Shown here one piece after another: positions 14,789 to 64,000 of a DNA stretch of 64,000 bases (position 1 is its first letter; every line of letters starts with the position of its first letter). The stretch lies in the NCBI GenBank assembly GCA_030068145.1, contig JAPJBO010000637.1, positions 1-64,000 of the forward strand, read 5' to 3'. Source of the DNA: Diplonema papillatum. Its lineage: Eukaryota; Euglenozoa; Diplonemea; Diplonemida; Diplonemidae. Made by a program: the position numbers and the translations under genes. Under the pieces are notes generated by a model. That model was given only the letters and a program-made list of their open reading frames with translations, ran no database searches and was not told where the DNA came from.

Positions 14789-14826
14789 AAAAAGTCTCTA
14801 TTAGCGAGCGCTAATAGAGACTTTTT
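14789..14826. repeat. Perfect 18-bp hairpin
   Basis: AAAAAGTCTCTATTAGCG is followed after two bases by its exact inverse. T-rich on the right, it could act as a terminator-like hairpin or be a small inverted-repeat end. Confidence 0.8.
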
Positions 14827-14864
14827 TCCCGCGAAAAGAGCGCTTTTTCCGCGTAAAAAGCCAC

Positions 14865-14965
14865 TTTTGCGCGAATAAAGACTTTTTGGGCGCGAATAAA
14901 GACTTTTTGTGCGCGAGTAAAGACTTTTCGGGCGCGAATAAAGACTTTTTTTCCGCGGATAAAGA
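14865..14965. repeat. 22-bp tandem repeat
   Basis: About five units of GCGCGAATAAAGACTTTTTG directly before a C-run (14995-15004) and the ubiquitin-protease fragment. The frame through it is not part of that protein. Confidence 0.85.
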
Positions 14966-15044
14966 CCCTGGGCCGCTAATAAGGACCCTGTCCCCCCCCC
15001 CCCCCTTCGTCCTACTGGTAAGCTCGCGCTCGGGGAGGAGCCAG

Positions 15045-16013
15045 CTCAGCCAAGACAGCCGAAGGATAGGGGCTGAAACAATCCTCGCCATGCTCCCAAT
15101 GTTCTGCGATGCGCGACAGCACGACGCGCACGAGGCTTTGGTTGCAATTCTGGATAGGACAGACAGCTCCCTAGGGCCGGACGAGACGACGGAGGCTTGT
15201 CCGGATTGGCGACTTTTCCAGACGTGCCTGGAGAACACGATGACGACAACAACACGATGTATCACCTGTGGCGCCACATCCACCCGTCATCAACTGGTAC
15301 GGTGTCTTCAAGTCCCTCGTGGAAGGCCGGTGGAGGACGCATTCTGTGTTCGTGGAATTATGAATCCGGAGAGGAGGTGTGACTGCGGAGCTGCTGGATC
15401 CGTTGTGGAGACCATGAACGTGCATGTGGCGTCCGAGTGCCTGCTGTTGCAGTTCGGCATTTACGCAAGCGATGGTGCGAGACTACGGAATGACGCTTCC
15501 CTACCGCTCCTCCTGCGACTGCCGGACGGCACACTACGCCTTTCCGCGGTGGTTGTACACACGGGACAAAATACGACAAGCGGCCATTTTGTCACATACG
15601 TCTTGCAAGGGATGCAATGGACGCTTTTCGATGACGAACGAGTCTTGCACGTCGACAACGTTCCTTGGACTGACATATACCTCGCCGCATACGTACGAAT
15701 CCCCAATGCGTCCCACGAGGTGGTCGAACGCTTGCCATCACCTACTATGATGGCAACAACAGTCCCACCGCAGGTCCCGCTGATACCTTCTAGTCCGCCC
15801 TGTACCGACGCGAATCTGGAATCTTGCCAACCCATGCCCTCCGACGCCGCTTTGGCAGCACACGACCAGCCACCTGAACAGCCCAAGGACCCCCCGGAAC
15901 TGCGCTGCAAGCGCTGCTTCACCGACCGCACCAAGGACGGTCGATTGTTCCGGGGCCTCAGAGGCCTGCGTGTGCACGAACGTCTCTGCACGTACGTCAA
16001 CTTCGGGGAGTGA
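15045..16013 (+). pseudogene. Ubiquitin-specific protease (USP), Cys-box missing
   Basis: The frame encodes the middle and C-terminal part of a USP/UCH-type deubiquitinase, which removes ubiquitin from proteins. Visible motifs: RQHDAHEALVAIL (the QQDAxE box), RCITCG and later RCDCG (the four zinc-ribbon Cys), HTGQNTTSGHFVTYV (the His box), WTLFDDERV and AYVRI. A tail after the domain has RCKRCF...H...C, a possible extra zinc finger. The N-terminal Cys box (G-N-T-C-Y type) is absent. Upstream lie a short tandem repeat and a C-run. A possible splice acceptor (CCAG) ends at 15044, so the Cys box might be on an unseen exon. As it stands the protein lacks its nucleophile. Annotated as partial or pseudogene; the family call is firm. 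Confidence 0.8.
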
Positions 16014-18442: not shown

Positions 18443-18709
18443 GTGGGGTCACAGCTCACAGGAGCACCGGCCCGCCACCCTCCCCGCCCCCGGCCGAAAG
18501 AGTGCGCGCCGCGCCGGGCCGGGAAGAGAGCGGGTGCGAGGACCGAGGCGCCGGCGGAGGCCGCCGCGAGCTTCCTCGCCTCGCTCGCTTACCCCGCGAA
18601 GCTGGCCCCCGCGGCAGAGGCGCCCCCGCCCGGGCTTCCTTCCCGGCTGCCGCCAGCGTCGCCGGTGGCGCCGCCGTTCCGGGTCGGCGGCGGGGCTAAC
18701 CATCCTTGA
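18443..18709 (+). other. GC-rich Ala/Pro segment, possible exon
   Basis: A sharp GC-rich island in AT-richer DNA. One plus-strand frame reads an Ala/Pro-rich chain with AEAAASFLASLAYPAKLAP, like the low-complexity start of the C2-domain exon at 33 kb. No splice signals or domain could be fixed, so this is only a candidate. Confidence 0.2.
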
Positions 18710-20121: not shown

Positions 20122-20259
20122 TTTTTTGTATGAGCACCTGCTTTGTAGGAAATACTTGAGGAGACTGCCAGTTGCGATAGATCAAAGGAGGTAAATGCGC
20201 TGTAGCCCACGAAACACTGGTAAATCTGGGTTTAGTGGCGGGCGTAAGCGTTCAACAAA
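20122..20259 (-). mobile_element. SINE-like dispersed repeat, copy 1
   Basis: Read on the minus strand it begins TGTTGAACGCTTACGCCC and ends GGTGCTCATAC followed by an A-run. Related copies lie at 32165, 33780, 45424 and 51101 in both orientations. No coding content and an A-rich 3' end suggest a short retroposon. Confidence 0.7.
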
Positions 20260-23200
20260 AGTTCGGGTGATGCAGGCTTCACCTGGCTGCTTCACCTGGC
20301 TGCTTCACCTGGAGCTTTTTTTAGGGTATGAACGAAGCATCATCAAGAAGTTCTACAGCTACTCACATTGTGGCTTTTTCTGGATAAATTACAGTGCGTC
20401 AGTGGCTCAAGACCCAGGCACAACATTGCCGGCATGTGTGCATACTGTCGGCTTCCTGCTCATGGGGGACCAAGGCAGGTACTCTCACACCTCAAACATA
20501 GATCAACAGTTTTTTACCCCTGCCGTACTTGCGTTCTACCTAATTACACCGCAGAGAGTCACCGCGTATTCTAATTTCCAACGATTCAGGCAGGGGGGGC
20601 TGAAGGAAGGGTGGAGGGCTGCGCCCTTTGTCCACAGCAGTTGGGTCTTCATGGTGTGGGACGTGCCCAACTTCGGAGGCAGTAGCGTTCTGGTACAAAA
20701 TGCAGGAGACGGCAAGCTCGGGATGAAAATGAAGGGTATGGTATTGGATGAACTGGATGGGTCACCAAAGAACATAGCGTTGATGCCATTTGTTGGAATG
20801 AAGCTGACACACGTGAACAATTCAGCAGTGAGAAATGAACACGAGGCTTTGTTGGCCATGTCTCGTTCCACGAACGGTATTACGCTAACATTCGACGACG
20901 TTTCACCTGCACTCGGAAGTCCCAGACTTCAATATGTATCCACTGGGTTCAAAACAAATGTCTCGGTGCCGAAGGGTGTTACCGGGGACATAGGCTGCGT
21001 GTTCGAAGAGAACCTCCTCCAAAGAGTGATACCCGGGTCAAACGCCGAGCTCCACGGGCTCTCCGGCTACGTTGGTCGCACCGTAACGCATGTTAATGGC
21101 ATACCCGTGGCTGATTTGGACGACATTTGTAAGGCCGCAGCTTCGTTCCCCGCAGAAGTGTCACTCACATTTCACATGCCAGCACCGCTGTACGCATCCC
21201 CCCCAACATCACCGAGTAATGTTCGCACTGCTTCGACTATTCGGTTCCAAAAAACTCCCATTGCCAGCATCTCCCCAATGCGTGGGCCTGCGCCAGTCCG
21301 GCGAAGCGAACCGCAACTCCGCAAAGACACGGAAGGAAAGCGTGGCTACCAGTTCCGAATATCTCCGCCTCGCCCTGGGCGCCCGCCCACCAGGATCAAT
21401 CCACCTTCCCCGTCGCAGCAACTTCAGGGGGGTTCAAGAATAGACACACCGTACGCCCGGAAGGGTGTCGGCGACGAGTCTCCGCGATCCACAAAGAGCG
21501 CTGGCTGCCAGACAAGTGTCCCACGTCTTCGATACCCGCCGAAAATGTCGCAAAACCTTCCGATTGAACCGTACACTGACAAGCCGGTGCCCGATCGCCC
21601 GTCCCAGCCTCAGCCATGCGCTTCGTCCCCTGCCGACGGTCGTCAACAGAGACAACTTCTCCTTCCAAATTCGAGAGGCCCTCCGGAACCGCCGACGACC
21701 CCAGTAGCCAAGACCACATCCAACGAAAACGTTGCAAAGCAGCCGCTCTGGGAAGCCCCGTCTCATCCCTCGGATGTTGCATCAGATCCCTTCCCCATGC
21801 AATCACGCAACGAGAAGCTATCGTCGAATATCACCTGTCAGCAAACTCAACCCGATCTGGCGCAGAACCACAGTGCAGCACAATATCAGACGTCATCCGA
21901 GTACCGCGGGCGGCCCACGCTGGACCAGTCGAGCTCGACTTTTCATGAAGCCGGCGTGTTGCCGTCCGTTTCGAAGAAGGCAACCGTTTTCTCGGTGAAG
22001 TCGGATGCCGTATCTGGAGATCAGAAGTCGTCACAACTGCAGCCCGCAGCTGGGCCAAATGGCCAAGACCTCCTCCAGCGCCAGCCCCCAACGTTGTCTG
22101 CACACCGTCCGCCGACGGACGTAAACAGCCCGCCTTCCCCACAAATCCAACCTCCATTCTTGCAGCCACACAGCCAGCCACCGCACCAGCTGCCCCCCGA
22201 GCATCCGCGCGACCCCGGACCGGCGGCACGCGTGCACAGCCAACGTCAGCAGCAGCAAGCTTCGCAGAACTTACAACAGTATTTCACCCCAGGCCAAGCC
22301 AGCCTGGATCTTCACACCCAGCACCTTCAAACCCACGGTCAGCCCTCACATCCACTTGTTCACGAAAACAGTTTCGCGCATTCTCACTACCACGCTTCGC
22401 CATCCTCTCCACTCGCATCCCCACGGTTCAGGGGCGACCTACGAGATAACGCAGCTGACCACAACACCGCAAAGTTCAAGCTTGCAGCAGGGATGGTTCC
22501 TTACGAAAGGGCACAAATGGCACAGTACGAGCTGATTATCAATAAAGCCCCACAAGAGCCCTTGGGCCTCAGTTTGGCTGGCATGAACCTGCATGCTGTG
22601 GCTGAGAGCAGTGCCGGTCACCGGGCGCAAGCCGAACGGTTCATTGGAATGAAGATTACCCACGTGGAAGGCGATCCCATATCGAACGTCTTCCCTTTGA
22701 CAAATCGATCACTTGGAAACAGTCGAGTCACCATTCGATTTGCGCACCCCTCCGTAGAACTTGACGAGGCGGTAGTCGACAAGGCTCCTGGGGAGCCATT
22801 GGGCCTTCACTTGGAGGACACTCAAATTACGCACATCGCCGAAGATTCTCCGGCTGATCTCTGCGGACTCGACCAGTTCATCGGTCGCGAGCTGACGCAT
22901 ATTAACAACTTTCCGGTCACCAGTCCCTCCGAAGTTCAGGAAGTGGTCCGTGAGGCAGATGCACGTGTGCCTGCCGGTCGGTATTCCACCTTGCACCTAC
23001 GCTTCGATCCCACCGAAGCACCGAATGAGCTCCCTCCGCCGGGGACGCAAGTCGTCGCGAACGGCTTAACCGGAGCCACGGTTCCCAATGGAGCCGTCGG
23101 GACTCTAATGGGACCGAATCTCCTACAAGGGGAATGGGTCGCGGTCGTCGAGTTCCCCCCACCGGTCGGGCAGATCAACATGCGGTACTCGAACCTCGTC

Positions 23201-23689
23201 CCTGCTGACGCCGGCCGGCCCGCTCGGTCTCCTGCTGCCCTTGCGCTGTCCCAGGCTCCTTTGCAAGGCTTTGCGCACCCCAACCTCCCCTTCGTGTTAC
23301 GGCACAACCCAACGGCCAACGCACACTATGGTCAATCACCGAGTGCTTCTCCCGGGCCCAAGTTCAGCTCTCAACAAGGACCGGATCATTATTACCCACA
23401 CCAGCTGGGCACTTCACCCCGGGCTATCCCAATTTCACACGCGCATTCGTTTGACACCCTGCCAGGTGTCCCTGCATCCCAGGCCTTCCGAAGCGCTTCG
23501 CTCAATGCTTCGCGACAAGGCTTCTCTTTCAACCCCGGAGCCTCGTACAAAACCGCTCAACTTGGGGCTTCGGGTAAAGGTCCTGTATCGCAAGTCGATC
23601 CCGCGGAGAATGCACCTGTCTTCGACACGCCGGTGCAAGATGCCATACGTCCAGATCAACACCCGTCGTTCTATCATGGCTACATCTGA
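20195..23689 (+). CDS. Multi-PDZ-repeat, proline-rich scaffold-like protein
   Basis: The open frame is 1,164 codons, but the first 65 bases are inside a SINE-like repeat and residues 1-150 look non-coding. The credible start is the ATG at 20651 (MVWDVPNFGG) or an unseen upstream exon. PDZ-like repeats lie at about residues 165-235, 255-331, 778-853 and 857-950. Each carries a core like FVGMKLTHVNN, YVGRTVTHVNG, FIGMKITHVEG or FIGRELTHINN. Between them are about 440 residues rich in Pro, Ser and Gln with no domain. Residues 947-1003 read GTQVVANGLTG, NGAVGTLMG and RYSNLVPAD, a small SH3-like beta module found in protist proteins. PDZ repeats bind C-terminal peptides of partners, so a scaffold role is likely; location is unknown. 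No signal peptide or membrane segment was seen. Confidence 0.8.
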   Translation: MRCSPRNTGKSGFSGGRKRSTKVRVMQASPGCFTWLLHLELFLGYERSIIKKFYSYSHCGFFWINYSASVAQDPGTTLPACVHTVGFLLMGDQGRYSHTSNIDQQFFTPAVLAFYLITPQRVTAYSNFQRFRQGGLKEGWRAAPFVHSSWVFMVWDVPNFGGSSVLVQNAGDGKLGMKMKGMVLDELDGSPKNIALMPFVGMKLTHVNNSAVRNEHEALLAMSRSTNGITLTFDDVSPALGSPRLQYVSTGFKTNVSVPKGVTGDIGCVFEENLLQRVIPGSNAELHGLSGYVGRTVTHVNGIPVADLDDICKAAASFPAEVSLTFHMPAPLYASPPTSPSNVRTASTIRFQKTPIASISPMRGPAPVRRSEPQLRKDTEGKRGYQFRISPPRPGRPPTRINPPSPSQQLQGGSRIDTPYARKGVGDESPRSTKSAGCQTSVPRLRYPPKMSQNLPIEPYTDKPVPDRPSQPQPCASSPADGRQQRQLLLPNSRGPPEPPTTPVAKTTSNENVAKQPLWEAPSHPSDVASDPFPMQSRNEKLSSNITCQQTQPDLAQNHSAAQYQTSSEYRGRPTLDQSSSTFHEAGVLPSVSKKATVFSVKSDAVSGDQKSSQLQPAAGPNGQDLLQRQPPTLSAHRPPTDVNSPPSPQIQPPFLQPHSQPPHQLPPEHPRDPGPAARVHSQRQQQQASQNLQQYFTPGQASLDLHTQHLQTHGQPSHPLVHENSFAHSHYHASPSSPLASPRFRGDLRDNAADHNTAKFKLAAGMVPYERAQMAQYELIINKAPQEPLGLSLAGMNLHAVAESSAGHRAQAERFIGMKITHVEGDPISNVFPLTNRSLGNSRVTIRFAHPSVELDEAVVDKAPGEPLGLHLEDTQITHIAEDSPADLCGLDQFIGRELTHINNFPVTSPSEVQEVVREADARVPAGRYSTLHLRFDPTEAPNELPPPGTQVVANGLTGATVPNGAVGTLMGPNLLQGEWVAVVEFPPPVGQINMRYSNLVPADAGRPARSPAALALSQAPLQGFAHPNLPFVLRHNPTANAHYGQSPSASPGPKFSSQQGPDHYYPHQLGTSPRAIPISHAHSFDTLPGVPASQAFRSASLNASRQGFSFNPGASYKTAQLGASGKGPVSQVDPAENAPVFDTPVQDAIRPDQHPSFYHGYI

Positions 23690-46665: not shown

Positions 46666-48165
46666 CGCTTCCGAGCTTTGTTCCGCTAGTCTTGCCCTTA
46701 CCGCCCGCGAGTGGTTCGAAGCGTGTCAGCTGGTCTGTTATTCATTGTTTCGCGCGTACCATCGACAGCGAGCGAGCGCTGGTATAAATGAACGGGGGGA
46801 AACCCGTTTTAAAAAGAGAAAACAGAAAAAAAAGCCAACTCAAGCAACTTCATCCGCTGGAAAAGAGAAAAATAAAATAGTGCTAAAAATTAAGGAAGCC
46901 GAGCAAAGACTGTCGGTAGGTATCGACCACAACTCCGGGTGCTTTGCTTTGGCACTTGCCGTCGTAGGGGGGAAGGGCGGTCCACTAGTCACCACTTCAG
47001 ATCTCTGCATCCGGGTTGCGGAATGTTCACGCATTCCCTTTCGGCAATCCTGCACGTCCGAGCAAGCTCGTCAGTGGCAGCTTTGAGGCGAGCAATTACA
47101 CCTTGCCTTAAGACCGACTGACCCATGTCCAATTGCTGTTGACACGGAAACCTTCTCCACTTCGGCCTTCAATGTTCTCCATTGAATATTCGCTACTACA
47201 ACCAAGATCTGCACTCATCCACGCTCCATCGAGGCTCACGCCAACGACTTCGCGGCGTGGACCACGCACTCCTACGCACGCCTGGCTTTGTGATACCAGT
47301 ACGCGGCCAACTATGGGTGGATCGCTTGTCGTTGTTCTCACTGCGAGTCGTACGAAAGGCTGGCGTGCTATTGATTTAGCCAACCAGCTCTTCGAAAATA
47401 CCGTGTCCGCGACGGGACCAGTTACCCTCTCACCCTCGGATTCTTCCGTCGAATTTTAGCAGCGCGCCACTATACAAGCAGTTGCTTCAAGCATTACTCC
47501 GCCGGAATCTACAAACGGCGCGTCCTTTGACCACCCTCCGCAGCGCCAGCGAGTGTGCGCGGCAGTGCGCCCTGATGCCAGTAGACGCCTGTTTTCCAGA
47601 GAAAGCCTTTCCTGTTTGCGCGTGTGCTCATCTACTGCAACAGCGGCGCTGGCGCGCGGAAGTGAAAAAGAGAGAGATTCAGCCTGCATGGCACGAACCA
47701 ATTCACCTACCCCCCTGCAAGCGACCTTTTTGAGCTCAATTACACGGCGTTTGCACTCCACTCTCCAAACCTGAAACGGTAACATACCGTTTCAGGTTTC
47801 ACTGGAGTGCCCGTTCCCGGCGAGCTACGAGGAAACGAACCTGTAAGAGTGCCAACGCTACTCTTTCAATAACGTACATATAAAAGGTGTCACGGGATAA
47901 GCCGGCAGCCGCTGCTTAACGGATATCACCAGCCCTGCCACCTCGACTTCATCCTCATCCATGTCAGGATCGCCCTCTCGAGCGACTGCTTCGGCAGGAC
48001 AGCCGGCGCGAAAGCGCAACAAACGAAGAATGGAGCTGGATATCACCAGCCTATTATCACCGTCCTCGTCCGCTTTGAGATCGTCCTCGGACGACGTATT
48101 CAAATAACCCTAGCCTATGACAAATGCAAGCTTACCCCTGTGGTACCTGCATTTCAAGTTCACAC
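46666..48165. other. Intergenic, with a small hairpin at 47767-47798
   Basis: No gene recognised. AAACCTGAAACGGTA is followed by its inverse at 47784-47798. A dispersed segment lies at about 47220-47310 (see 19000). Confidence 0.55.
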
Positions 48166-51975: not shown

Positions 51976-52439
51976 TCCTGAAGCCCGTTTCCTCGAAAGT
52001 ATGGAACAGGAAACGAGAACCGTTTCCGTTTACTTGCCGACACCGACACACTTCCCCGACCAAGACTGCAGGATCCTCCAGGCACGGGGGTGTGTGTGGG
52101 TGGTGGGTGGGTGTGTGCATGACAGTATCCTGCCGGTGCGGAGTGCATGTCTGTTGCGGTGATGACGCGTGCTTTTACGTCGACGGGAGCGGGGTGCACC
52201 TCATCGTCAACCCCGAGCGGAGGGCCGTAGTGGAGGAATCGGTCGCCCTGGCGGTCGCCGAGAAGTACGCAAACGCGTCGTGCAAGGCGTGCGCCGCGAA
52301 GCTGGGCGTCGTCACCCACCATGGGGCCCGACGGCGCCTCGTTCCTCGGGTTCGGCGCCGACAAGGTGGGCGTGGACGGCCGCACGTACTCGAAAAAGGC
52401 GAAGTGCGCGCGGAGCACCAATCATGAGAACGGAAACGT
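51976..52439 (+). pseudogene. Decayed Cys-rich exon copy A (sense)
   Basis: Near-copy of 53331-53760: about 150 bases upstream of the exon, the CHVCCGDD-type start, and the exon to GAAGTGCGCGCGGAG. It has one extra base in CACCCACCATGG (the intact exon reads CACCACCATGG) that breaks the frame, and it lacks the final part. Confidence 0.85.
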
Positions 52440-52445
52440 CTCACC

Positions 52446-52680
52446 CTGCTCCCGTCGAAGTAAAAGCACACGTCATCACCGAAACAGACATGCACTCCGC
52501 ACCGGCAGGATACTGTCATGCACACACCCACCCAACACCCACACACACCCCCAGGAGTGTCTTGGTCGGGGAAGTGTCGGCAAGTAAACGGAAACGGTTT
52601 TCGTTACCTGTTCCATACTTTCGAGGAAACGGCTTCAGAGTGCACCTGGAAGTGTGGAGGGGAGGAGGAGACGTTTCCGT
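52446..52680 (-). pseudogene. Decayed Cys-rich exon copy, antisense fragment
   Basis: Inverse copy of the upstream flank and the first 25 codons or so of the exon only. It joins head-to-head with copy A around 52440. Confidence 0.85.
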
Positions 52681-52682
52681 TC

Positions 52683-53108
52683 CCATGATTGGTGCTCCGC
52701 GCGCACTTCGCCTTTTTCGAGTACGTGCGGCCGTCCACGGCCACCTTGTCGGCGCCGAACCCGAGGAACGAGGCGCCGTCGGGCCCCATGGTGGGTGACG
52801 ACGCCCAGCTTCGCGGCGAACGCCTTGCACGACGCGTTTGCGACCGATTCCTCCACTACGGCCCTCCGCTCGGGGTTGACGATGAGGTGCACCCCGCTCC
52901 CGTCGAAGTAAAAGCACACGTCATCACCGCAACAGACATGCACTCCGCACCGGCAGGATACTGTCATGCACACACCCACCCACCACCCACACACACCCCC
53001 GTGCCTGGAGGATCCTGCAGTGTCTTGGTCGGGGAAGTGTCGGCAAGTAAACGGAAACGGTTCTCGTTTCCTGTTCCATACTTTCGAGGAAACGGCTTCA
53101 GAGTGCAC
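52683..53108 (-). pseudogene. Decayed Cys-rich exon copy B (antisense)
   Basis: Inverse copy of flank plus exon with a short internal deletion and the same extra base in CACCCACCATGG as copy A. With copy A it can pair over about 400 bases. Confidence 0.87.
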
Positions 53109-53130
53109 CTGGAAGTGTGGAAGGGAGGAG

Positions 53131-53330
53131 GCACCTCATCGTCAACCCCGAGCGGAGGGCCGTAGTGGAGGAATCGGTCGCCCTGGCGGTCGCCGAGTAC
53201 GCCAACGCGTCGTGCAAGGCGTGCGCCGCGAAGCTGGGCGTCGTCACCCACCATGGGGAGGCGAAGTGCGCGCGGAGCACCAATCATGAGAACGGAAACG
53301 TCTCCTCCTCCCTTCCACACTTCCAGGTGC
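53131..53330 (+). pseudogene. Decayed Cys-rich exon copy C (sense, internal deletion)
   Basis: Contains the middle of the exon (CACCTCATCGTCAACCCCGA onward). It then skips from CACCCACCATGGGGA directly to GGCGAAGTGCGCGCGGAG, losing the part that encodes the end of the domain. Confidence 0.85.
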
Positions 53331-53465
53331 ACTCTGAAGCCGTTTCCTCGAAAGTATGGAACAGGAAACGAGAACCGTTTCCGTTTACTTGCCGACACTT
53401 CCCCGACCAAGACACTGCAGGATCCTCCAGGCACGGGTGTGTGTGGGTGGTGGGTGGGTGTGTGC

Positions 53466-53851
53466 ATGACAGTATCCTGCCGGTGCGGAGTGCATGTCTG
53501 TTGCGGTGATGACGTGTGCTTTTACTTCGACGGGAGCGGGGTGCACCTCATCGTCAAACCCGAGCGGAGGGCCGTAGTGGAGGAATCGGTCGCCCTGGCG
53601 GTCGCCGAGAAGTACGCAAACGCGTCATGCAAGGCGTGTGCCGCGAAGCTGGGCGTCGTCACCACCATGGGGCCCGACGGCGCCTCGTTCCTCGGGTTCG
53701 GCGCCGACAAGGTTGCTGTGGACGGCCGCACGTACTCGAAAAAGGCGAAGTGGGCCGCCGTGCGCGCGGAGCACCCCGCCATCTCGGCCAGGGACCGGTC
53801 CACATTCTTCGCGGGCACCGCACCGCCGCCGTCGCAAGAGCCGAAGAAAAG
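53466..53851 (+). CDS. RNAi helicase-RdRP gene, exon 1: RIG-I-type CTD-like Cys-rich domain
   Basis: The only copy with an unbroken frame. ATG 53466 gives MTVSCRCGVHVCCGDDV, and residues 5-7 and 55-58 hold paired Cys (CRC and CKAC) about 50 apart. The second pair is followed by KLGVV, then FLGFGADKVAVDGR and KKAKW. This matches the layout of the RIG-I-like receptor C-terminal regulatory domain, a zinc-bound beta domain that grips RNA ends: two Cys knuckles 50-56 apart, then G, a 'G-L...L-x-I-x-x-F-V-V' strand and a basic K-x-W. One knuckle is C-x-C instead of C-x2-C. A consensus donor (GAAAAG|GTGTG, 53851/53852) leaves phase 2, which matches exon 2 exactly. In RLRs the domain follows the helicase; here it precedes it. 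An earlier exon is possible (CACAG-type acceptor at 53472). The homology is inferred. Confidence 0.55.
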
Positions 53852-54660
53852 GTGTGCCGTCGTCCTTTCAAATGAAACGGAGCAATAGCACCTGCTTTGG
53901 ACCTCTCGTGAACTTGGGCTGGGGACCTTGTGTACTGTCAGGTTTCAGATGATATATACGCGCATGTTGAGTGCTAAATAGTCAAGGACATTCAAGGCGC
54001 CACAGACCAAGGTCGCGCGCAGTCCTCTTAAAGAAGTGAGGGGCCCAAGACCAAATTCAAAGCGAATTTCTTCTTGGTGTCGGTCGCAACAGTTACAAAC
54101 TTGGCTAGCCGTAGTTAAAGTGTGTAATCATACCTACATCCCTCATACTACCCGCCTCACAGCCTCAATGGTCAACCGGAGACCCTAAAACACCGAACCT
54201 CTAAACCACAATAAACGCTAGAAGTGGTAGAGCGATCAATCGATCCTCACCACGCCGCAAGTTCAAAACATTTCCCACCCACCACCACTTCTTAAGGACT
54301 GCGCGAGTTAAGAAGTGGTGGAGGGTGGGAAATGTTTTGAACTTGCGGCGTGATGAGCATCGATTGATCGCAAGTATTCTCCTCGAATGAAGAGTGCTTA
54401 GCGCAAGTCATCAGCTTGCACTGATTGCGTCCCTGCCATTTATGCTATTGACGCTCTCTTCCGCGCACTAATAGTCGCGCGCAAAAACTTGCAAGCACCA
54501 CGCGCTCTGCGGACTCAATAAATTATTCCTCCCCCCGCCTACAACGACACGCCCACCTATTTAAGGGTCGAGATCTCGTTCGTTAACGGAATCTACCTGG
54601 TACCACCCTCCCCTATCTCTTCTGGCACCACCACTCCAAACTACCCTTATCTCTTTGCAG
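53852..54660 (+). other. Intron 1 (809 bp)
   Basis: Starts GTGTGCC and ends TTATCTCTTTGCAG after a pyrimidine-rich stretch. It joins phase 2 to phase 2 (AG|G). It contains a dispersed repeat at about 54160-54220 (see 34423) and a large hairpin at 54234-54370. Confidence 0.65.
54234..54370. repeat. Hairpin with 62-bp arms in intron 1
   Basis: CCGCAAGTTCAAAACATTTC and flanking bases (54234-54295) recur in inverse at 54308-54370 with few mismatches and a 12-base loop. Likely a MITE or other inverted-repeat insertion. Confidence 0.92.
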
Positions 54661-55954
54661 GAGCTCACAGGAGGAGGCCCGGCCCGTCGTGCTGCCGACG
54701 GAAGACGGGCACTTCGACTGGGAGCGGTACATCATCTCGGGGAAGACCCCCCGCTCGTACCAGCTCGAGGCGTTCTTCGAAGGACTGCAGCGGGACCTCG
54801 TCGTGTGCCTGCCGACGGGCAGCGGGAAGACGCTGGTTGCGGCTTTGGTGCTTGCCGCCTTCGCGGCGCTGAACCCGGCGAGGCTGGCGGTGATGGTGGT
54901 CGACCGATTGCCGCTGGTGTTCCAGCAGGCAGAGTGCATCAGGAGGGACACAGGGCTGAGCGTCAGCGAACTGTGCTCCGTGACGGCGTCCGGGTACGTG
55001 AAGAAGCAGCTGGCTGAGCGCCGCTGCCAGTGTGTCGTGGCGACAGCGGGATCCCTCCGGGAGATGCTGACCGAAGCGTGGCTGTCTCCAGACGACTTCA
55101 GCGCCGTGGTGTTCGACGAGTGCCACAACGCCACCGGCGGGCACAGCTACGTCCACCTGCTCCGCGCGATGGCACGCGCGCGGCACCCGTGCCGGCTCCT
55201 CGGGCTGTCCGCGTCGCCGGTGGACCCGCGGGGGGGCGCGGGGCTGGCGAAGGCGACCGAGCACCTCGGCTCGCTGTTCAGGGGCCCATTGTTCCGCCCG
55301 GCGAGCCTCGGCGAATACGCGGCTGCGGCCGTCGACTTCGTCGAGGCGGCGCTGAAGCCGAGCGCGCGGCGGTTCGACGCCGCGGTCCTCGCGGAGATCC
55401 GGCGGCTGGTGAGCGCAGCGGGAATACCCCGCATCGGCATCGACCCGGGGGTATCCCTGGCCGACGGCCACCAGCAGGTCGTGCACCTTGTGTCCACTGC
55501 GCAGGCTGGCGCGGCCGAGAGAGAGTCACCAGGCTCGTCTGAACTGTTCGGTGCTCTCCGGAAGTTGCTTGACGCGTGGCCCATCGCAGAGGCACTCGGC
55601 ACCCGCTCCGCCCTGCGGTACCTGGGCCGCGACCTCGCCGGCGTGGCGGCGGAGAGCAGCTCCGCGTTCGACGCCGTCGTCGCCGAGCTCTCCCGCAGCC
55701 CCGGGGGCAGGGCGCTCGTCTTCGTAGAGACGCAGCTGGTGTGCGGGCACCTGGCCGCGGCCCTCGAAGCAGCCCTCGGGGCTGCTTCGAGGGCCGTCGT
55801 GGGGCACACTGGCATGGACTGGGCGTCCCAGGAAGCGGCCGTCGAAGAGTTTCGCGCAGGCTCGGTCAGAGTCATCGTGGCCACGTCGGTGCTCGAGGAA
55901 GGTTTCGACGTCCCGGAGTGCGATTTGGTCATTCGGATGGACTTTTCGGCCACA
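54661..55954 (+). CDS. RNAi helicase-RdRP gene, exon 2: Dicer/RIG-I-type DExH helicase
   Basis: Encodes residues about 129-560 of the joined protein. Helicase motifs in order: RSYQLEAF (Q-like), LPTGSGKT (I, about 179-186), VVDRLPLVFQQ (Ia), VVFDECHN (II, DECH at about 281), LGLSASPV (III), GRALVFVET (IV), VRVIVATSVLEEGFDVPECDLVIRMDF (V, split here for length: VIVATSVLEEGF then DVPECDLVIR). This is the SF2 subgroup of Dicer, DRH-3 and RIG-I, which tracks along double-stranded RNA using ATP. The insert between the two RecA lobes is short. Motif VI is encoded at the start of exon 3. The exon begins after TTTGCAG and ends GGCCACA|GTGTGT in phase 0. No RNase III or PAZ domain was found nearby. 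Confidence 0.93.
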
Positions 55955-57696
55955 GTGTGTTCTTGCCGCCATTTACGCTTTCTAGAAATCAATTATGGGT
56001 CGATTTCGGGATTTGAGGGGTGGCTTCGGGGCACCCAGAGGGGTGTGTTCTTGCCGCTATTTACGCTTCTAGAAATCAACTTTAGTCGATTTTCGGGATC
56101 TTAGGGGTGGCTTCGGGGTACTAAGGGGGGTTGAGTGCTGTGCCACTTCTAGGCCCCCAGGGCCAGGTTGCCCTGCGGTACCTGGGCCGGGACCTCGCCG
56201 GCGTGGCGGCGGAGAGCAGCACCGCGTTCGAGGTGATTTGGTCATTCGGATAGACTTTTCGGCCACAGTGTGTTCATGCCGCTATTCACGCTTCTAAAAA
56301 CCAACTTTGGTCGATTTTCGGGATTTTAGGGTGGCTTCGGGGTAATATGGGGGGTTGAGTGCTGAGCCACTTGCCAGGTTGCCCTGCGGTACCTGGGCCG
56401 GGGCCTCGCCGGCGTCGAGCTCTCCCGCAGCCCGGGGGGCAGGGCGCTCGTCTTCGTCGAGACCCTCGAAGCAGCCCTCGGCCGGGGTCGGGGCCGTGGT
56501 GGGGCACAGGAAGCGGCCGTCGAAGAGTTCCGCGCAGGCTCGGTCAGAGTCATCGTGGTCACGTCGGTTTCTCGAGGTAGGTTTCGACGTCCCGGTGTGC
56601 GATTTGGTCATTCGGATGGACATTTCGGCCACAGTGTGTTCTTGCCGCCATTTACGCTTTTTAGAAATCAATTTTGGGTCGATTTTCGGGATTTTAGGAG
56701 TACCCAGAGGGGTGTGTTCTTGCCGCTATTCACGCTTCTAGAAATCAACTTTGGTCGATTTTCGGGATTTTAGGGTGGCTTCGGGGTACTATGGGGGGTT
56801 GAGTGCTGAGCCACTTGCCAGGTTTCCCTGCGGTACCTGGGCCGGGGCCTCGCCGGGCGTCGAACGCGGAGACAAGCTCCGCGTTCGACGCCGTCGTCGC
56901 CGAGCTCTCCCGCAGCCCGGGGGGCAGGGCGCTCGTCTTCGTCGAGACCTCGAAGCAGCCCTCGGCCGGGGGTCGGGGCCGTGGGGCACACCGGCATGGA
57001 CTGGGCGTCCCAGGAAGCGGCCGTCGAAGAGTTCCGCGCAGGCTCGGTCAGAGTCATCGTGGTCACGTCGGTTTCTCGAGGTAGGTTTCGACGTCCCGGT
57101 GTGCGATTTGGTCATTCGGATGGACATTTCGGCCACAGTGTGTTCTTGCCGCCATTTACGCTTTTTAGAAATCAATTTTGGGTCGATTTTCGGGATTGTA
57201 GGGTGGCTTCGGGGTACTATGGGGGGTTGAGTGCTGAGCCACTTGCCAGGTTTCCCTGCGGTTCCTGGGCCGGGGCCTCGCCGGCGTCGAACGTGGAGAC
57301 AAGCTCCGCGTTCGACGCCGTCGTCGCCGAGCTCTCCCGCAGCCCGGGGGGCAGGGCGCTCGTCTTCGTCGAGACCTCGAAGCAGCCCTCGGCCGGGGGT
57401 CGGGGCCGTGGTGGGGCACACCGGCGTGGACTGGGTGTCCCGTTCTGCGCAGGCTCGGTCAGAGTCATTGCGGCCACGTCGGTTCTTGAGAAAGGTTTCG
57501 ACCAGGTCCGTCGTTATTCTTGCACATGCCGCGGCTGACAGATTGGCGAGCTCTGATTTTCGATGTGCATCATGATAAAGGAAGGTCTAGCCAGCCACTA
57601 AAACACACCACGCCCAGTCTGCGCAATACGTTTTAGGGCAACCCGCATTGTCAGTACCTAAAAATAAAGCCGCAAGCACCGATCAACCCAAAACAG
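55955..57696 (+). repeat. Intron 2 (1,742 bp), built of repeated copies of the exon 2 end
   Basis: The intron runs from GTGTGTTCTTG to AAACAG. It carries four decayed copies of the last part of exon 2 plus the donor region: a minimal one at about 56165-56270, then 56380-56640, 56828-57140 and 57248-57510. The landmark CCACTTGCCAGGTT repeats about every 430-440 bases. Copies keep CGGCCACAGTGTGTTC (the splice donor context) but have frameshifts in motif V (reading VSRGRF instead of VLEEGF). The fourth copy ends without the donor. They cannot replace exon 2, but could act as decoy donors. Confidence 0.9.
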
Positions 57697-60424
57697 GTGC
57701 GCCCCATTCGTTTCATCCAGACCAAGGGCCGCGCCCGAGCCAACCGCGGCGGGATGAAGTGCATAGTCCGACCCGGCCTGCCCAGCACGCTGCTGGAGCT
57801 GGAGGGCGCGATGGTCGCGCACGTGGTGCAGGAAACCGAGAAGGCGGGGCTGCCGTCGCGGCGCACCCGCGCCATGCTGGCGCAGCCGGACGTGCACCGG
57901 CGCACGCGGCCGGTCAGCTTGGCCAGGGGCCGCTTCGCGGCGGAGTTTCTGGTCGCTAAGTCCACCGGGAAAGACAGCGACCGCACCATCGCCAGCCTCG
58001 GCAAGGCGCTCGAACCGTACTTCGGCTGCGATTCGGACGCAGCGGCCATGAGCAGCAGCACCCGAGAGGCCCGGATCCTCGTCGAGTTCCACGCGGTGGG
58101 CGAGGCCTCGGTCGCGAAGCTGTGCGCGGAGTGGTCCTTCCGCGTCGACAAGCGCCCCGTCTTCTACGCGCCGCAAACCCTCCCCGCCGCGATCAACCGC
58201 CCGCTGCCGGCCGAAAACGTCTCCGTCACGGTCGGCTTCCTCAGCCGAAGCATGCAGACCTTCCACCGAGGCGACTGCTCCCTGCCGCTATGCGCGGCCC
58301 GTTTCGATGGCGAGGTCACGCTCATCGCCTGTAATTTCTCCGTTGTAATCACAGCGGCAGACATCCTGGACTGCATCGTGGTCGACGCCAGAGAACACCA
58401 CCACACGCTGTACATCCACATGACGACCCCCCCGGATTGTAGAATGGACCCGGACGTGCGACCGGAACTGGTGGCTGGAATCGAGGAACAAATCTGTCGC
58501 TTCCGACGGGTCCTCGGCGCGTTCCCGTGCGTAGCGCTGCGGGTCCACGTGGCCGTGCCGTTCGAGAAAGGGGGAAGGGCGGTGCGCTGCGGGATCGCGG
58601 TGGCCGCGAGGCTGACCAGGGTGGCTGAAGAGCCGGTCTCCGTAGAGGAGCCGTCGTGGGGGCCGTCGGACGGCGTGCTCGAGATGCTCGTGCAAGGCCG
58701 GCGCGGCGGGCTCGCGCCGCATAACCCGGGCAGCGCGGGCCGGGGCCTGCCGCTGATCGTGGAGGGCTGCTTGCGGGTGTTCGAAGACGCACGGTGCCTC
58801 GGCGCCACCCCCGCGTACCTGGCCGCCGTCCGAGGGAAGCTGCGCCAGGCGCTGGCCGCCGGGCAATCGGACCGAGAGCTGGAGCGCGGGTGCCGCGACG
58901 TGATCACCGCCGACTTCCCCGAGAGCAAGCATCTCTTCTGGCACGTCAGCCGGAGGGACGCGTTCTCGTTCATGCCCGCGGTGTGCGTGACGCCGTACCG
59001 GGTGAAGTTCGTGCCCCCGATCATGGTGTCCGCCGGCAGCCGGATGCTTCGGCTACTCGCCTCGCGCGGCATCTCCGCCCTCACCGCGCGGGTCTGCTCC
59101 GAGAACTACAACGGCCGAGTCCCGAACCCGGCGGTGCTCGCGAGTTGCTTGGTTTCATGCGGAATCGCGGTCGGCGGGGTCCAATTCAACCACCTCGGCA
59201 GCTCGATGTCGCAGCTGCGCCGCGGGTGCGCGCTGTGCGTCGCTGCGCCTGCGGCCGCGTGCGAGGAGCTGCGGGCGATGGTGGGCGGGATCCCGGACAC
59301 CTTCAAGCGGATGAGTCGGTTCGCTCTGCTCCTTTCCTCCGACCGGGCGCACCTCCCCCCCACCGCGGAGCACCCGCTGTCCCACCGCGTGCTGCGCGAC
59401 ACGGTCAACCGCAAGGGCCACCTGCTAACCGACGGGTCCGGGTTCATCGACCCAGCCACGTGCCTCGCCCTGGTCCGCAACCTCCACCCGCACCTCGAAA
59501 CGCCCCCGGCCGCCGTGCAGGTCCGGTTCGCGGGCATGAAGGGCGTGTTGGTGACCGATTTTGCCGGCGCGCACACGTCGCGGCAGGTCCCCGTCGCCGC
59601 CCGGGATTCGATGGTCAAGTTCAGGCCGGCGGCGGCGGCGCCGGCGGAGCTGTGCCTGTGCGATTACAGCAGGGACGTGCCGGCCCACCTGAACAAGGAG
59701 GCCATCACGCTGCTGACCGCCGCGTCAACCCGATTCGCGGGCGCGGCCGCGCACGTCAGGGTTGAGGAGCTCCTCGAGCAGGAGCTGGAGGGTCTCCGAG
59801 AGCTGCTGTTCGACGATGTCCGCGCGTTCGAAACGCTGCGGCCCGTCCTCAACCAGCTGCCTGTCGACCGGCTGCGGGAGGCGGGTGTGCACTTGTTCCG
59901 GGACCCCTTTTTCGCGGACGTCCTGCGGTGCGTGTACAGGTCCCGCGTCAACCTCCTCCGCACCAAAACCCGGGTACCCGTGCCCGACGGCCGCCATCTC
60001 CTCGGCATCCCAGACCCGACCGGCGTTCTGCACGACGGCGAGGTGTACGCGAGCGTCAGGAGGCGTCCGGAAGACGGCTACGAGCCGGTGCTGGGACCGC
60101 TGCTGGTCTACCGGAACCCGTGCCTGCACCCCGGGGACGTCCGCGTGGTGACGGGCGTGGCGCGCGGGGAGCTGCGGGCGTACGTCGACGTGGTGGTGTT
60201 CCCGGCGGGGGAGGAGTGCCGGAGCGTGCCGGGGGAGTGCAGCGGGGGAGATCTCGACGGAGACTCGTTTTCGGTCGTGTGGGACGGGGGGCTGGTGCCG
60301 GAATCGACCGCGCCGCCGTGCGATTACGACGCGCTCGCGCGCGAGGCGCGGAGGGAGGCCGCGGAACCCGCCCCCGAGGACCCGCGCCTCATCCACACCA
60401 TCCCCGGCGAAGAAGCCCCAGCTG
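57697..60424 (+). CDS. RNAi helicase-RdRP gene, exon 3: helicase motif VI plus RNA-dependent RNA polymerase
   Basis: Starts after AAACAG in phase 0: VRPIRFIQTKGRARA completes the helicase (motif VI). The remaining 890 residues are a cellular RdRP (plant RDR / nematode EGO-1 / QDE-1 family), which copies RNA into double strands for siRNA production. Motifs: TDGSGFIDP, VRFAGMKGVLVTD, SMVKFRP, LNKEAITLL, TKTRVPVPDGRHLLGIPDP, VYRNPCLHPGDVRVV, VVVFPAGEE, then ECSGGDLDGDSFSVVWDG. The three catalytic Asp of DLDGD (60250-60264) are intact. No linker domain separates helicase and polymerase, so one chain carries both. The exon ends at 60424 (CAGCTG|GTTGTA) in phase 1. Codon use is GC-rich throughout. 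Confidence 0.97.
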
Positions 60425-60867
60425 GTTGTATGCATGTCTTGCTGCCTTCCCCCCCCCCCCCCCCCCCAGCTAAATATAAAATAACGCGCCATCCAAACAC
60501 AATGCCACCAGCACTGTCTGGTGGTGTAGAAACCTGGGACACCTGGCAGTTCAAAAAACTTTCATCCTTGCGAGAGAAAAAAAAGTCTCTCGCTGGTCAA
60601 ATTGTGGTCAATCCCCGCTGTGCGTTCGTTTCTTGTGTCGAGTACCAAAAGTCTTGCGGGTTGCCCTTCAAGTGTATCGTGCAGGCTAAAAAAAGACGTA
60701 GACAGCGTGTTTTGGTGGTTGATCAGAGTTCCGTACCTGGAAATGACACAGGGTAAATACAAGTGGGAAAAACGATCAACCGGCACGCACATAGTTAGCA
60801 TTGAGTTCTTTTGAGTACATGAACCACATGGATTCGCATGCACTAGTTAGCACTTACACGTACACAG
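60425..60867 (+). other. Intron 3 (443 bp) with transposon fragments
   Basis: Donor GTTGTA, acceptor ACACAG, phase 1 both sides (the split codon becomes Gly). It holds a C-run (60451-60467), a dispersed repeat at 60600-60790 (see 39890), and at 60794-60848 an inverse copy of the transposon-end motif known from 11.1, 26.9, 48.9 and 50.3 kb. Confidence 0.75.
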
Positions 60868-61366
60868 GCATCCCGCTGGATGTCCACTTCGGCAAGGTCA
60901 TCGCGAACGAGTACATCGGGCGGGTAGCGCACCTGCACCTGGCCCTCACCGACATCCTCGCCGACGGTGCCTCCGACCCGCTGTGCGTCAGCGTCGCCGA
61001 ATCGCAGTCGACCGCGGTCGACTACCCCAAGACCGGAGTGGCCCCGTGCGTGCCGGTTGCCGGAAAGGAAATTGTCGAGACGGCCGGGTACCCGGACCAC
61101 ATGATGAAGCCGTCGTCGGTTTCGTACCGCTCGGGCAAGGTGCTCGGCCGCATGTACCGCCGCTGCGTCGCGGCGTCGTTCGACGACGCCGCCGCCGCCG
61201 GGCCCGACCGCGCCGGCGAGCCCGGCGCCGGCTTGGTCACCAAGGGCCAGGCCGCGCACGCCGAGTGGGCCGGCGAGTTCTGCGAGCGGTACTCGCACGA
61301 CGTCGCGGTGGTGGTCGCGCGCTTCGGCGTCCGCAGCGTCGGCGAGCTGCTGGTGGGGCTGCCCAG
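60868..61366 (+). CDS. RNAi helicase-RdRP gene, exon 4: RdRP C-terminal part
   Basis: Reads GIPLDVHFGKVIANEYIGRV, LHLALTD, DPLCVSVAESQSTAVDYPKTG, GYPDHMMKPSSVSYRSGKVLGRMYR. This matches the RDR segment after the catalytic loop ('IAN.H.a.aD...ca.LA...s.AVDfpKtG...YPdfm.k...y.S..vlG.lyr'). A helical Ala/Arg-rich end follows. The start is fixed by phase to exon 3 and the end by the donor CCCAG|GTATAG (61366/61367). A pyrimidine-rich acceptor 50 bases on (CTTTTTCTTTTTAG, ending 61416) would add only Ser-Arg and a TGA at 61421-61423, a possible gene end. The true terminal exon is uncertain. Confidence 0.88.
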
Positions 61367-61418
61367 GTATAGTAGACGAGTTTTCTTCTCGAGTCACTTT
61401 TTCTTTTTCTTTTTAGCC

Positions 61419-61497
61419 GGTGAGGAAACTGAACCGCCCGAGTACGATGCACGTCCAGGATTTGGGGATGCTAAAAGTGCGGGGAATGGTACTAGGC
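61419..61497 (+). repeat. Dispersed repeat between the exon 4 copies
   Basis: GTGAGGAAACTGAACCGCC through GATGCACGTCCAGGATTT also occurs at 63543-63612. It separates exon 4 from its duplicate, so its insertion or co-duplication accompanied the event. Confidence 0.8.
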
Positions 61498-61886
61498 GGG
61501 TCGCGCACCCACCCGCTGTGCGTCAGCGTCGCCGAATCGCACTACCCCAAGACCGGAGTGGCCCCGTGCGTGCCGGTTGCCGGGAAGGTAATTGTCGAGG
61601 CGGCCGGGTACCCGAACCACATGGTGAAGCCGTCGTCGGTTTCGCACCGCTCGGGCAAGGTGCTCGGCCGCATGTACCGCCGCTGCGTCGCGGCGTCGTT
61701 CGACGACGCCGCCGCCGCCGGGCCCGACCGCGCCGGCGAGCCCGGCGCCGGCTTGGTCACCAAGGGCCAGGCCGCGCACGCCGAGTGGGCCGGCGAGTTC
61801 TGCGAGCGGTACTCGCACGACGTCGCGGTGGTGGTCGCGCGCTTCGGCGTCCGCAGCGTCGGCGAGCTGCTGGTGGGGCTGCCAAG
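61490..61886 (+). pseudogene. Duplicate of RdRP exon 4
   Basis: Near-identical to 60868-61366 from DPLCVSVAES onward, but lacking two stretches: about 15 residues around LHLALTDILADG, and QSTAVD just before the conserved YPKTG. Both losses are in frame, so it stays open and ends at a donor (CCAAG|GTATTA). Missing the conserved AVD it is unlikely to be functional. The low divergence points to a recent duplication. Confidence 0.85.
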
Positions 61887-62075
61887 GTATTATAGGCGAT
61901 TTTTCCGCGGCGGCGCCGAAGCTTTACCAGCTTCGGCTGACACCATTTGCGCACTTAACCATGGTTAAGAAGACGACTGAAAGCACAGACACGAAGATAG
62001 CTCAAAGCATTTGCAAAATAACACGAAAAGCCTCTAGGCAAAAACCCGTTTTCACATTTCTTCTCAAGCCACGTA

Positions 62076-63540: not shown

Positions 63541-64000
63541 TTGTGAGGAAACTGAACCGCCTGAGTACGATGCACGTCCAGGATTTTGGCATGCTAATCC
63601 TGCAGGGAATAGTACCAGACTTTGGAACCTGACAAATCTTAAAGCAGAACCGACCCCCCGTTTTTTTTTTCGTGGGAAAGGGTAGAATACAAACACTCTC
63701 TTTTCCCGCTAGTGCGCACAAACACATGTACGCAACTGCCACTACCGCAGAAACGATACGCACACGAGCATACGATACCTTAAAGGAACCTTTACAACAA
63801 TGGTCACCCGGAGACTTTAAAACGCCGGATCTCTAAGCGAACTAAAGCGCCATACTATTTTTTGCTATCTGTTTTGCCAGAATGCTGCGACTCTACCAAT
63901 CTTTGCCAGTTGTCACGTGACAGGGGAAGCGTACATTCGTCAACGCAAGGTTTTTGGGAAAGGATGCGAAGGTGCATTCTGTGAAAGAATGTTTCGGACG
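63541..64000. other. Intergenic to window end
   Basis: Dispersed repeats at 63543-63612 (see 61419) and 63798-63850 (GTCACCCGGAGACTTTAAAA, see 34423 and 54160). No gene seen. Confidence 0.6.

Follow-up and report, generated by a model that had tools for sequence, protein, structure and literature searches.

We analysed the first 64,000 nucleotides of contig JAPJBO010000637.1 (C637) in assembly GCA_030068145.1 of the unicellular marine flagellate Diplonema papillatum, a stretch that we refer to as the window, and found that a gene on its + strand, DIPPA_03987, probably encodes a single-chain amplifier of RNA silencing from an old eukaryotic family. The chain would comprise a C-terminal domain (CTD) of the RIG-I-like receptor (RLR) type, a Dicer/RIG-I-type helicase, an RNA-dependent RNA polymerase (RdRP) and a Cid1/GLD-2-type nucleotidyltransferase, possibly followed by a KH-like stretch and a Cet1-like tunnel. 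The order of these modules and the intact catalytic residues of the RdRP and the nucleotidyltransferase were observed directly. Papers given by PMC number are cited from parts of their text.

The gene and its modules

The original prediction, made from the DNA letters alone, described four exons that join a helicase of the Dicer/RIG-I type and an RdRP to an RLR-CTD-like domain. Four + strand exons with GT/AG borders and agreeing phases can indeed be read from the sequence, and in a protein search the joined exons matched DIPPA_03987 (P0001 in our survey; 2,563 amino acids, annotated "hypothetical protein") with identity and query coverage both at 100%. At the level of sequence, it is thus confirmed that one gene in the window joins the three parts. 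Two borders had to be moved. The third donor, predicted at 60424/GTTGTA, lies 3 nt off and drops one Cys; with 60427/GTATGC instead, exons 1-4 equal residues 1-1637 of DIPPA_03987 letter for letter. Exon 4 ends at donor 61366/GTATAG, so that 61367-61423 is intron, and the gene does not close at 61423 as predicted: it leaves the window and runs to C637:69748, with exons 5-7 at approximately C637:64518-66430, 68548-69108 and 69455-69748. The nucleotidyltransferase and Cet1-like module had therefore been missed, which changed the mechanistic picture. The exons assign as follows.

53466..53851, + strand: exon 1; residues 1-128 plus the first two bases of codon 129; predicted RLR-CTD-like zinc domain, Cys 5, 7, 55 and 58
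54661..55954, + strand: exon 2; residues 129-560; DExH helicase Hel1, a spacer of ~150 amino acids at the Hel2i position, and most of Hel2
57697..60427, + strand: exon 3; residues 561-1470 plus the first base of codon 1471; covers helicase motif VI (QTKGRAR), a linker region and the RdRP core
60868..61366, + strand: exon 4; from the remainder of codon 1471 through the second base of codon 1637; completes the RdRP domain
C637:64518: exon 5 acceptor, from exact comparison with DIPPA_03987 and tblastn

An RdRP profile found a single locus in the 271-Mb assembly (2,910 contigs), namely DIPPA_03987, in line with the one RdRP reported in the genome paper (PMC10161547). That paper also states that gene-bounding repeats disturb automatic gene models, and the DIPPA_03987 locus is rich in repeats of this type; exons 1, 2-4 and 5-7 could on that account be separate genes joined by annotation, with local repeats misleading the gene callers. 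We regard such an artefact as very improbable. Helicase motif VI is complete only after the exon 2/3 join, in many homologues (for example P0003, P0007 and P0014) the initial Met precedes the first CTD Cys by two residues, some others having longer N-termini, and the identical module order recurs in other species. In one of these homologues, P0008, 7,806 coding bases lie on a contig of 7,943; because this gene is nearly uninterrupted, the fusion is independent of splicing guesses.

The N-terminal domain occupies residues 1-128/129 and precedes the helicase, as predicted. Exon 1 gave RIG-I_C-RD (PF11648) as its sole Pfam family (E=0.007; residues 3-108 on profile positions 3-114 of 117) in a scan with a limit of E<=10, in which HMMER filters remove most matches above 0.1. 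The comparison of residues 1-129 with known structures, which the original prediction had proposed as a check, was positive on the predicted model: only CTDs of RLR and DRH proteins were among the 50 entries listed in the structural ranking. We are confident that the modelled fold is a zinc-binding CTD of the RLR/DRH type. The CTD of DRH-3, according to the title of a structure entry in that search, has been solved with 5'-triphosphate (5'-ppp) RNA. Like DIPPA_03987, C. elegans DRH-3 and other RLR/DRH proteins combine a Dicer/RIG-I-type helicase with a zinc CTD; unlike DIPPA_03987, they carry the CTD C-terminal to the helicase and have no fused RdRP. Since its CTD is N-terminal to the helicase, we did not file DIPPA_03987 as an RLR.

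Several results weigh against the RLR assignment, which draws on the structural ranking of a model. The RIG-I_C-RD match, at 17 bits, missed the curated cut-off of 25.6. In Foldseek, no match of the CTD model was counted at E<=0.001 (best 1.0e-3, with cereblon domains at 2.4e-3), and two of the five predicted models were poor. Within the family, sequence matches of the N-terminal domain were to Yippee-Mis18 in 13/18 members (best 2.2e-5) versus RLR-type in 12/18. The Yippee-Mis18 matches, further sequence matches to MsrB, Mis18 and Yippee, and the closeness of cereblon in Foldseek would suit a generic beta-tent zinc domain (Yippee/MsrB/cereblon-like) that serves protein contacts and does not bind RNA ends. 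We consider this unlikely, given the exclusively RLR/DRH entries in the structural ranking, the single Pfam family found with exon 1 alone, and the position of the domain next to an RLR/Dicer-type helicase.

The helicase motifs, read from the sequence, are Walker A PTGSGKT at 54812, DECH at 55115 and QTKGRAR in exon 3. Pfam matched DEAD (6.8e-18) and Helicase_C (8.8e-14), and also ResIII in exon 2. The best PDB sequence matches were to AncD1D2 (8.3e-28), whose name indicates a reconstructed ancestral Dicer, to 1wp9 (2.9e-25), an entry titled "ATP-dependent RNA helicase, putative", and to Dicers, the strongest of these at 5.2e-24; RLRs ranked lower. In RIG-I and Dicer helicases, Hel2i sits between Hel1 and Hel2, where the spacer of exon 2 lies. 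These matches assign the helicase to the Dicer/RIG-I type. The RdRP follows in the same chain, C-terminal to this DExH helicase, as in helicase-fused RDRs. Its catalytic motif DLDGD is intact at 60250-60264, and Pfam matched it in exon 3 (4.1e-77) and exon 4 (4.1e-14, profile positions 485-581 of 582). Over residues 991-1569, PF05183 reached 315.1 bits (cut-off 23.8), together with the DxDGD motif, and the polymerase is, judged from these profiles, of the cellular kind. It has its core in common with plant RDR2, the best PDB sequence match (2.2e-37), and with Neurospora QDE-1 (7.0e-12); to our knowledge, neither of these has a fused helicase, CTD or nucleotidyltransferase.

The nucleotidyltransferase is encoded beyond 61423, after the RdRP. 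PF22600 scored 27.8 bits for the domain alone and 23.7 bits for the whole protein against a cut-off of 27, and GLD-2 was matched in the PDB at 8.2e-12. The putative catalytic residues of a Pol-beta-type palm, GS followed by D-x-D and a third Asp, were found to be invariant in eight aligned members (G1777-S1778, D1789, D1791 and D1856; in alignment A6, G41-S42, D53, D55 and D120). RdRP, helicase and nucleotidyltransferase, the combination of the fission yeast complex RDRC, thus appear to be encoded in one chain.

The stretch beyond the nucleotidyltransferase is possibly KH-like, and a low-confidence model suggests a Cet1-like triphosphate tunnel at the C-terminal end. Here, too, there is evidence on the other side: the C-terminal model has a mean predicted local distance difference test (pLDDT) score of 58.8, with 199/504 residues below 50, and this part gave no PDB sequence matches and no shared Pfam family. 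We anchored the register of the tunnel residues on an FG motif, which we take to be the Cet1 motif. Among 18 members, the first of the first-strand glutamates was present in 5 (not P0001) and the second in none; the acid of the last strand was present in 17. Because the metal-binding glutamates of an active triphosphatase are largely missing, we filed the module as tunnel-like and not as a triphosphatase, unlike Cet1 itself, which is an active capping enzyme.

Distribution of the module order and known relatives

To the original prediction, this arrangement looked new. We found instead that it characterizes a family. Three protein searches, one of which contributed the best 120 of its 200 hits, yielded 127 RdRP proteins of at least 1,462 amino acids; these were scored with profiles built in this analysis from rows that are themselves among those counted, and many rows are near relatives, so that the counts are not independent. 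Among the matches listed, helicase and RdRP occurred together in 77/127. The CTD was found in 49 of the 58 helicase-RdRPs with more than 140 amino acids before the helicase (41/50 after removal of the profile's own rows), and at E<1e-3 in 0/50 RdRP proteins without a helicase match. The CTD-helicase-RdRP order is therefore a property of the family, and one that falls below the cut-off in Pfam. In the 70 helicase-RdRPs with more than 350 amino acids after the RdRP, the nucleotidyltransferase was found in 68 (58/60 without profile rows; the misses were P0177 and P0182), the C-terminal profile CT1 in 67, and CT2, the last part of the C-terminus, in 35. All four of CTD, helicase, RdRP and nucleotidyltransferase were present in 44 proteins (36 without profile rows), with named carriers that include Rhopilema, Hydractinia, Hydra, Artemia, Macrostomum, Effrenium, Prorocentrum, Cladochytrium and Riccia.

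A wider CTD profile, A5, was applied to the nine CTD-negative proteins, and Dendronephthya (a soft coral; 1.5e-6) and Heterostelium (2.2e-4) were positive. Seven oomycete proteins, four of them from one species, gave weak and partial matches of 3.0-13.7 bits. Controls stayed at or below 2.5 bits (220 shuffled proteins) and -0.3 bits (109 other proteins); Albugo, at 3.0 bits, is therefore no better than noise. Two helicase-RdRPs outside these nine, P0177 and P0181, gave no match to this profile. In a quick RdRP tree of 44 rows, all proteins found in this survey, the helicase label needed two changes versus a mean of 9.2 when shuffled, and both main clades contained helicase-bearing proteins. 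The Diplonema protein fell in the other large clade from the Dictyostelium and oomycete RDRs, on a long branch that makes its position unsure.

The fusion of helicase and RdRP is already known from the literature, which describes it in Dictyostelium, peronosporomycete oomycetes, Hydra and Nematostella (PMC4791657). Like DIPPA_03987, Dictyostelium RrpA-C and the oomycete RDRs combine an N-terminal DExH helicase with a eukaryotic RdRP, and the published accounts, as far as their available parts go, describe these two domains only. We found that the relatives from Heterostelium, Phytophthora ramorum, Pythium, Albugo and Globisporangium have nucleotidyltransferase matches too, except one shorter P. 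ramorum model. In searches of open-access literature, we recognised no mention of a CTD or nucleotidyltransferase in helicase-RdRPs; it may be in print elsewhere, and the tunnel module, KH and RESC were not searched for. The terms RIG-I and nucleotidyl are absent from the main texts of PMC4791657 and PMC6396948, and nucleotidyltransferase from those of PMC3661229 and PMC12768352. DIPPA_03987 thus belongs to a widespread family, the complete set of modules of which seems to be undescribed.

The known fusions raise the alternative that DIPPA_03987 belongs with the ordinary helicase-fused RDRs known from Dictyostelium and oomycetes, its extra modules being structural leftovers without a role in RNA sensing or tailing. 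The scarcity of the tunnel glutamates fits this alternative, as does the presence of CT2 in only half of the proteins with room, a count that also tells against our broader interpretation: the tunnel may be absent from half of the family, being less general than the other modules, or many gene models may be short. Nevertheless, the catalytic residues of the nucleotidyltransferase do not vary among the eight aligned members, and distant lineages share one order of CTD, helicase, RdRP and nucleotidyltransferase. Dead weight is unlikely to be kept in this way, and we therefore give the leftover explanation a low probability.

The proposed single-chain amplifier has counterparts whose parts are separate. 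In the worm, DRH-3 works with RdRPs, and the corresponding parts are an RdRP, DRH-3 and RDE-3. The fission yeast helicase Hrr1 is of the SF1 type, in contrast to the Dicer/RIG-I type of DIPPA_03987. RDRC unites Rdp1, Hrr1 and the poly(A)-polymerase-family protein Cid12 in one complex (PMC3380556). Unlike DIPPA_03987, it consists of three separate proteins, with no CTD or triphosphate tunnel listed. The parts of DIPPA_03987 are probably best read as an ancient one-chain counterpart of such RdRP-helicase-nucleotidyltransferase complexes, which elsewhere are encoded separately.

Repeats at the locus and other features

Three sets of partial exon copies lie at the DIPPA_03987 locus within the window.

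52065..53465, both orientations: the exon-1 region copied in part, with its 5' flank, upstream of the gene; the inverted repeats measure 94-182 nt at 94-99% complementarity, and some of their arms extend into exon 1
55955..57502, + strand: degenerate copies of the exon 2 3' end, in intron 2; direct repeats and tblastn fragments
61489..61911, + strand: degenerate duplicate of exon 4 covering residues ~1500-1645, within the intron that follows that exon; tblastn 84% identity, direct repeat

All seven assembly matches of the exon-1 peptide are at this locus. The inverted arms 52840-52998 and 53435-53593 (159 nt, 99% complementary) would, if transcribed through, give a hairpin matching the gene's own exon 1. 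An 87-bp tandem repeat (55955-56118) begins exactly at the intron 2 donor, a 76-nt repeat (61420-61495 and 63543-63618; 88% identity) recurs 2.1 kb apart, and a further degenerate partial copy of a neighbouring exon end lies in the intron at C637:67847-68214. These intronic exon-end copies resemble the repeat-bounded structures described for other D. papillatum genes (PMC10161547). Elsewhere in the window are an open frame on the + strand (14805-16010) that contains a ubiquitin carboxyl-terminal hydrolase domain (8.1e-14), a + strand candidate tRNA-Gly (TCC) that at 94 nt is longer than usual (18605-18698), a + strand open frame of 1,164 amino acids with only a borderline PDZ match (20195-23686; 26.7 bits versus 27) and, on the - strand, a fragment of a eukaryotic large-subunit rRNA gene (46925-47199; Rfam, 90.5 bits). 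Outside C637, contig C924 carries five tandem Piwi-domain places with identical scores, ~5,780 bases apart (13568-37564), and three further places lie on C185, C847 and C27.

Proposed working of a probable single-chain amplifier

A role as a primary amplifier of RNA silencing, as the original prediction had it, is a reasonable reading of the domains. We propose that the CTD and helicase would engage RNA ends or duplex and feed a single strand onward, and that the nucleotidyltransferase would add untemplated nucleotides to the 3' end of the template. The RdRP would then copy the tailed template into double-stranded RNA (dsRNA) for Dicer, while the degenerate Cet1-like tunnel may hold the 5'-triphosphate of a product started de novo.

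What is published on silencing bears on this proposal in both directions. The Dictyostelium helicase-RdRP RrpC is required for secondary small interfering RNAs (siRNAs) from a hairpin (PMC3661229), and Dicer-like, Piwi and Argonaute proteins have been reported for D. papillatum (PMC10161547). In its assembly, we found eight Piwi-domain places and, for RNase III, one place above the cut-off and one weak. Weighing against amplification, no secondary siRNAs were seen in Nematostella, which has four RdRPs (PMC12768352), so that owning such genes is no proof of it. DIPPA_03987 could instead be a dsRNA-making enzyme with a role outside RNA interference (RNAi), such as antiviral sensing or RNA repair. 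RLR-like parts would suit sensing, and an RNAi-unrelated role has been speculated for the RdRPs of Branchiostoma (amphioxus; PMC6396948). The Dicer-like and Argonaute/Piwi proteins of D. papillatum and the siRNA function of RrpC argue the other way, and we judge a role outside RNAi to be quite unlikely.

A more speculative joint reading, which we hold to be doubtful, extends the single-chain amplifier to its origins. The family would keep an ancestral, all-in-one amplifier of RNAi that dates from early eukaryotes, its parts having been dispersed later. Its CTD-helicase end would be kin to the later RIG-I/DRH sensors, and its C-terminal triphosphate-binding module kin to, and perhaps the source of, RESC1 and RESC2, the guide-RNA holders of kinetoplastids; guide-RNA handling (5'-triphosphate, 3' tail) would thus have been borrowed from a silencing polymerase. 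With a fold of the triphosphate-binding type at either terminus, the enzyme might also recognise 5'-ppp RNAs that it has made itself and so be switched by feedback. RESC1 and RESC2 are described, in the structural paper (PMC10201420), as being without sequence relatives outside kinetoplastids. In trypanosomes they are separate mitochondrial editing proteins, unlike the fused module of DIPPA_03987.

If the proposal is correct, cnidarians, a crustacean, a flatworm, dinoflagellates and a diplonemid would carry, on a single polypeptide, the polymerase, the motor and the sensor-type and tailing parts that RNAi amplification uses, and the steps of amplification would be open to study in a single enzyme. 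The C-terminal module would offer a candidate relative of the guide-RNA binders RESC1/2 outside kinetoplastids, and an RLR-type CTD would be present in an RNA-silencing polymerase outside animals, which would bear on the origin of RIG-I-like sensing.

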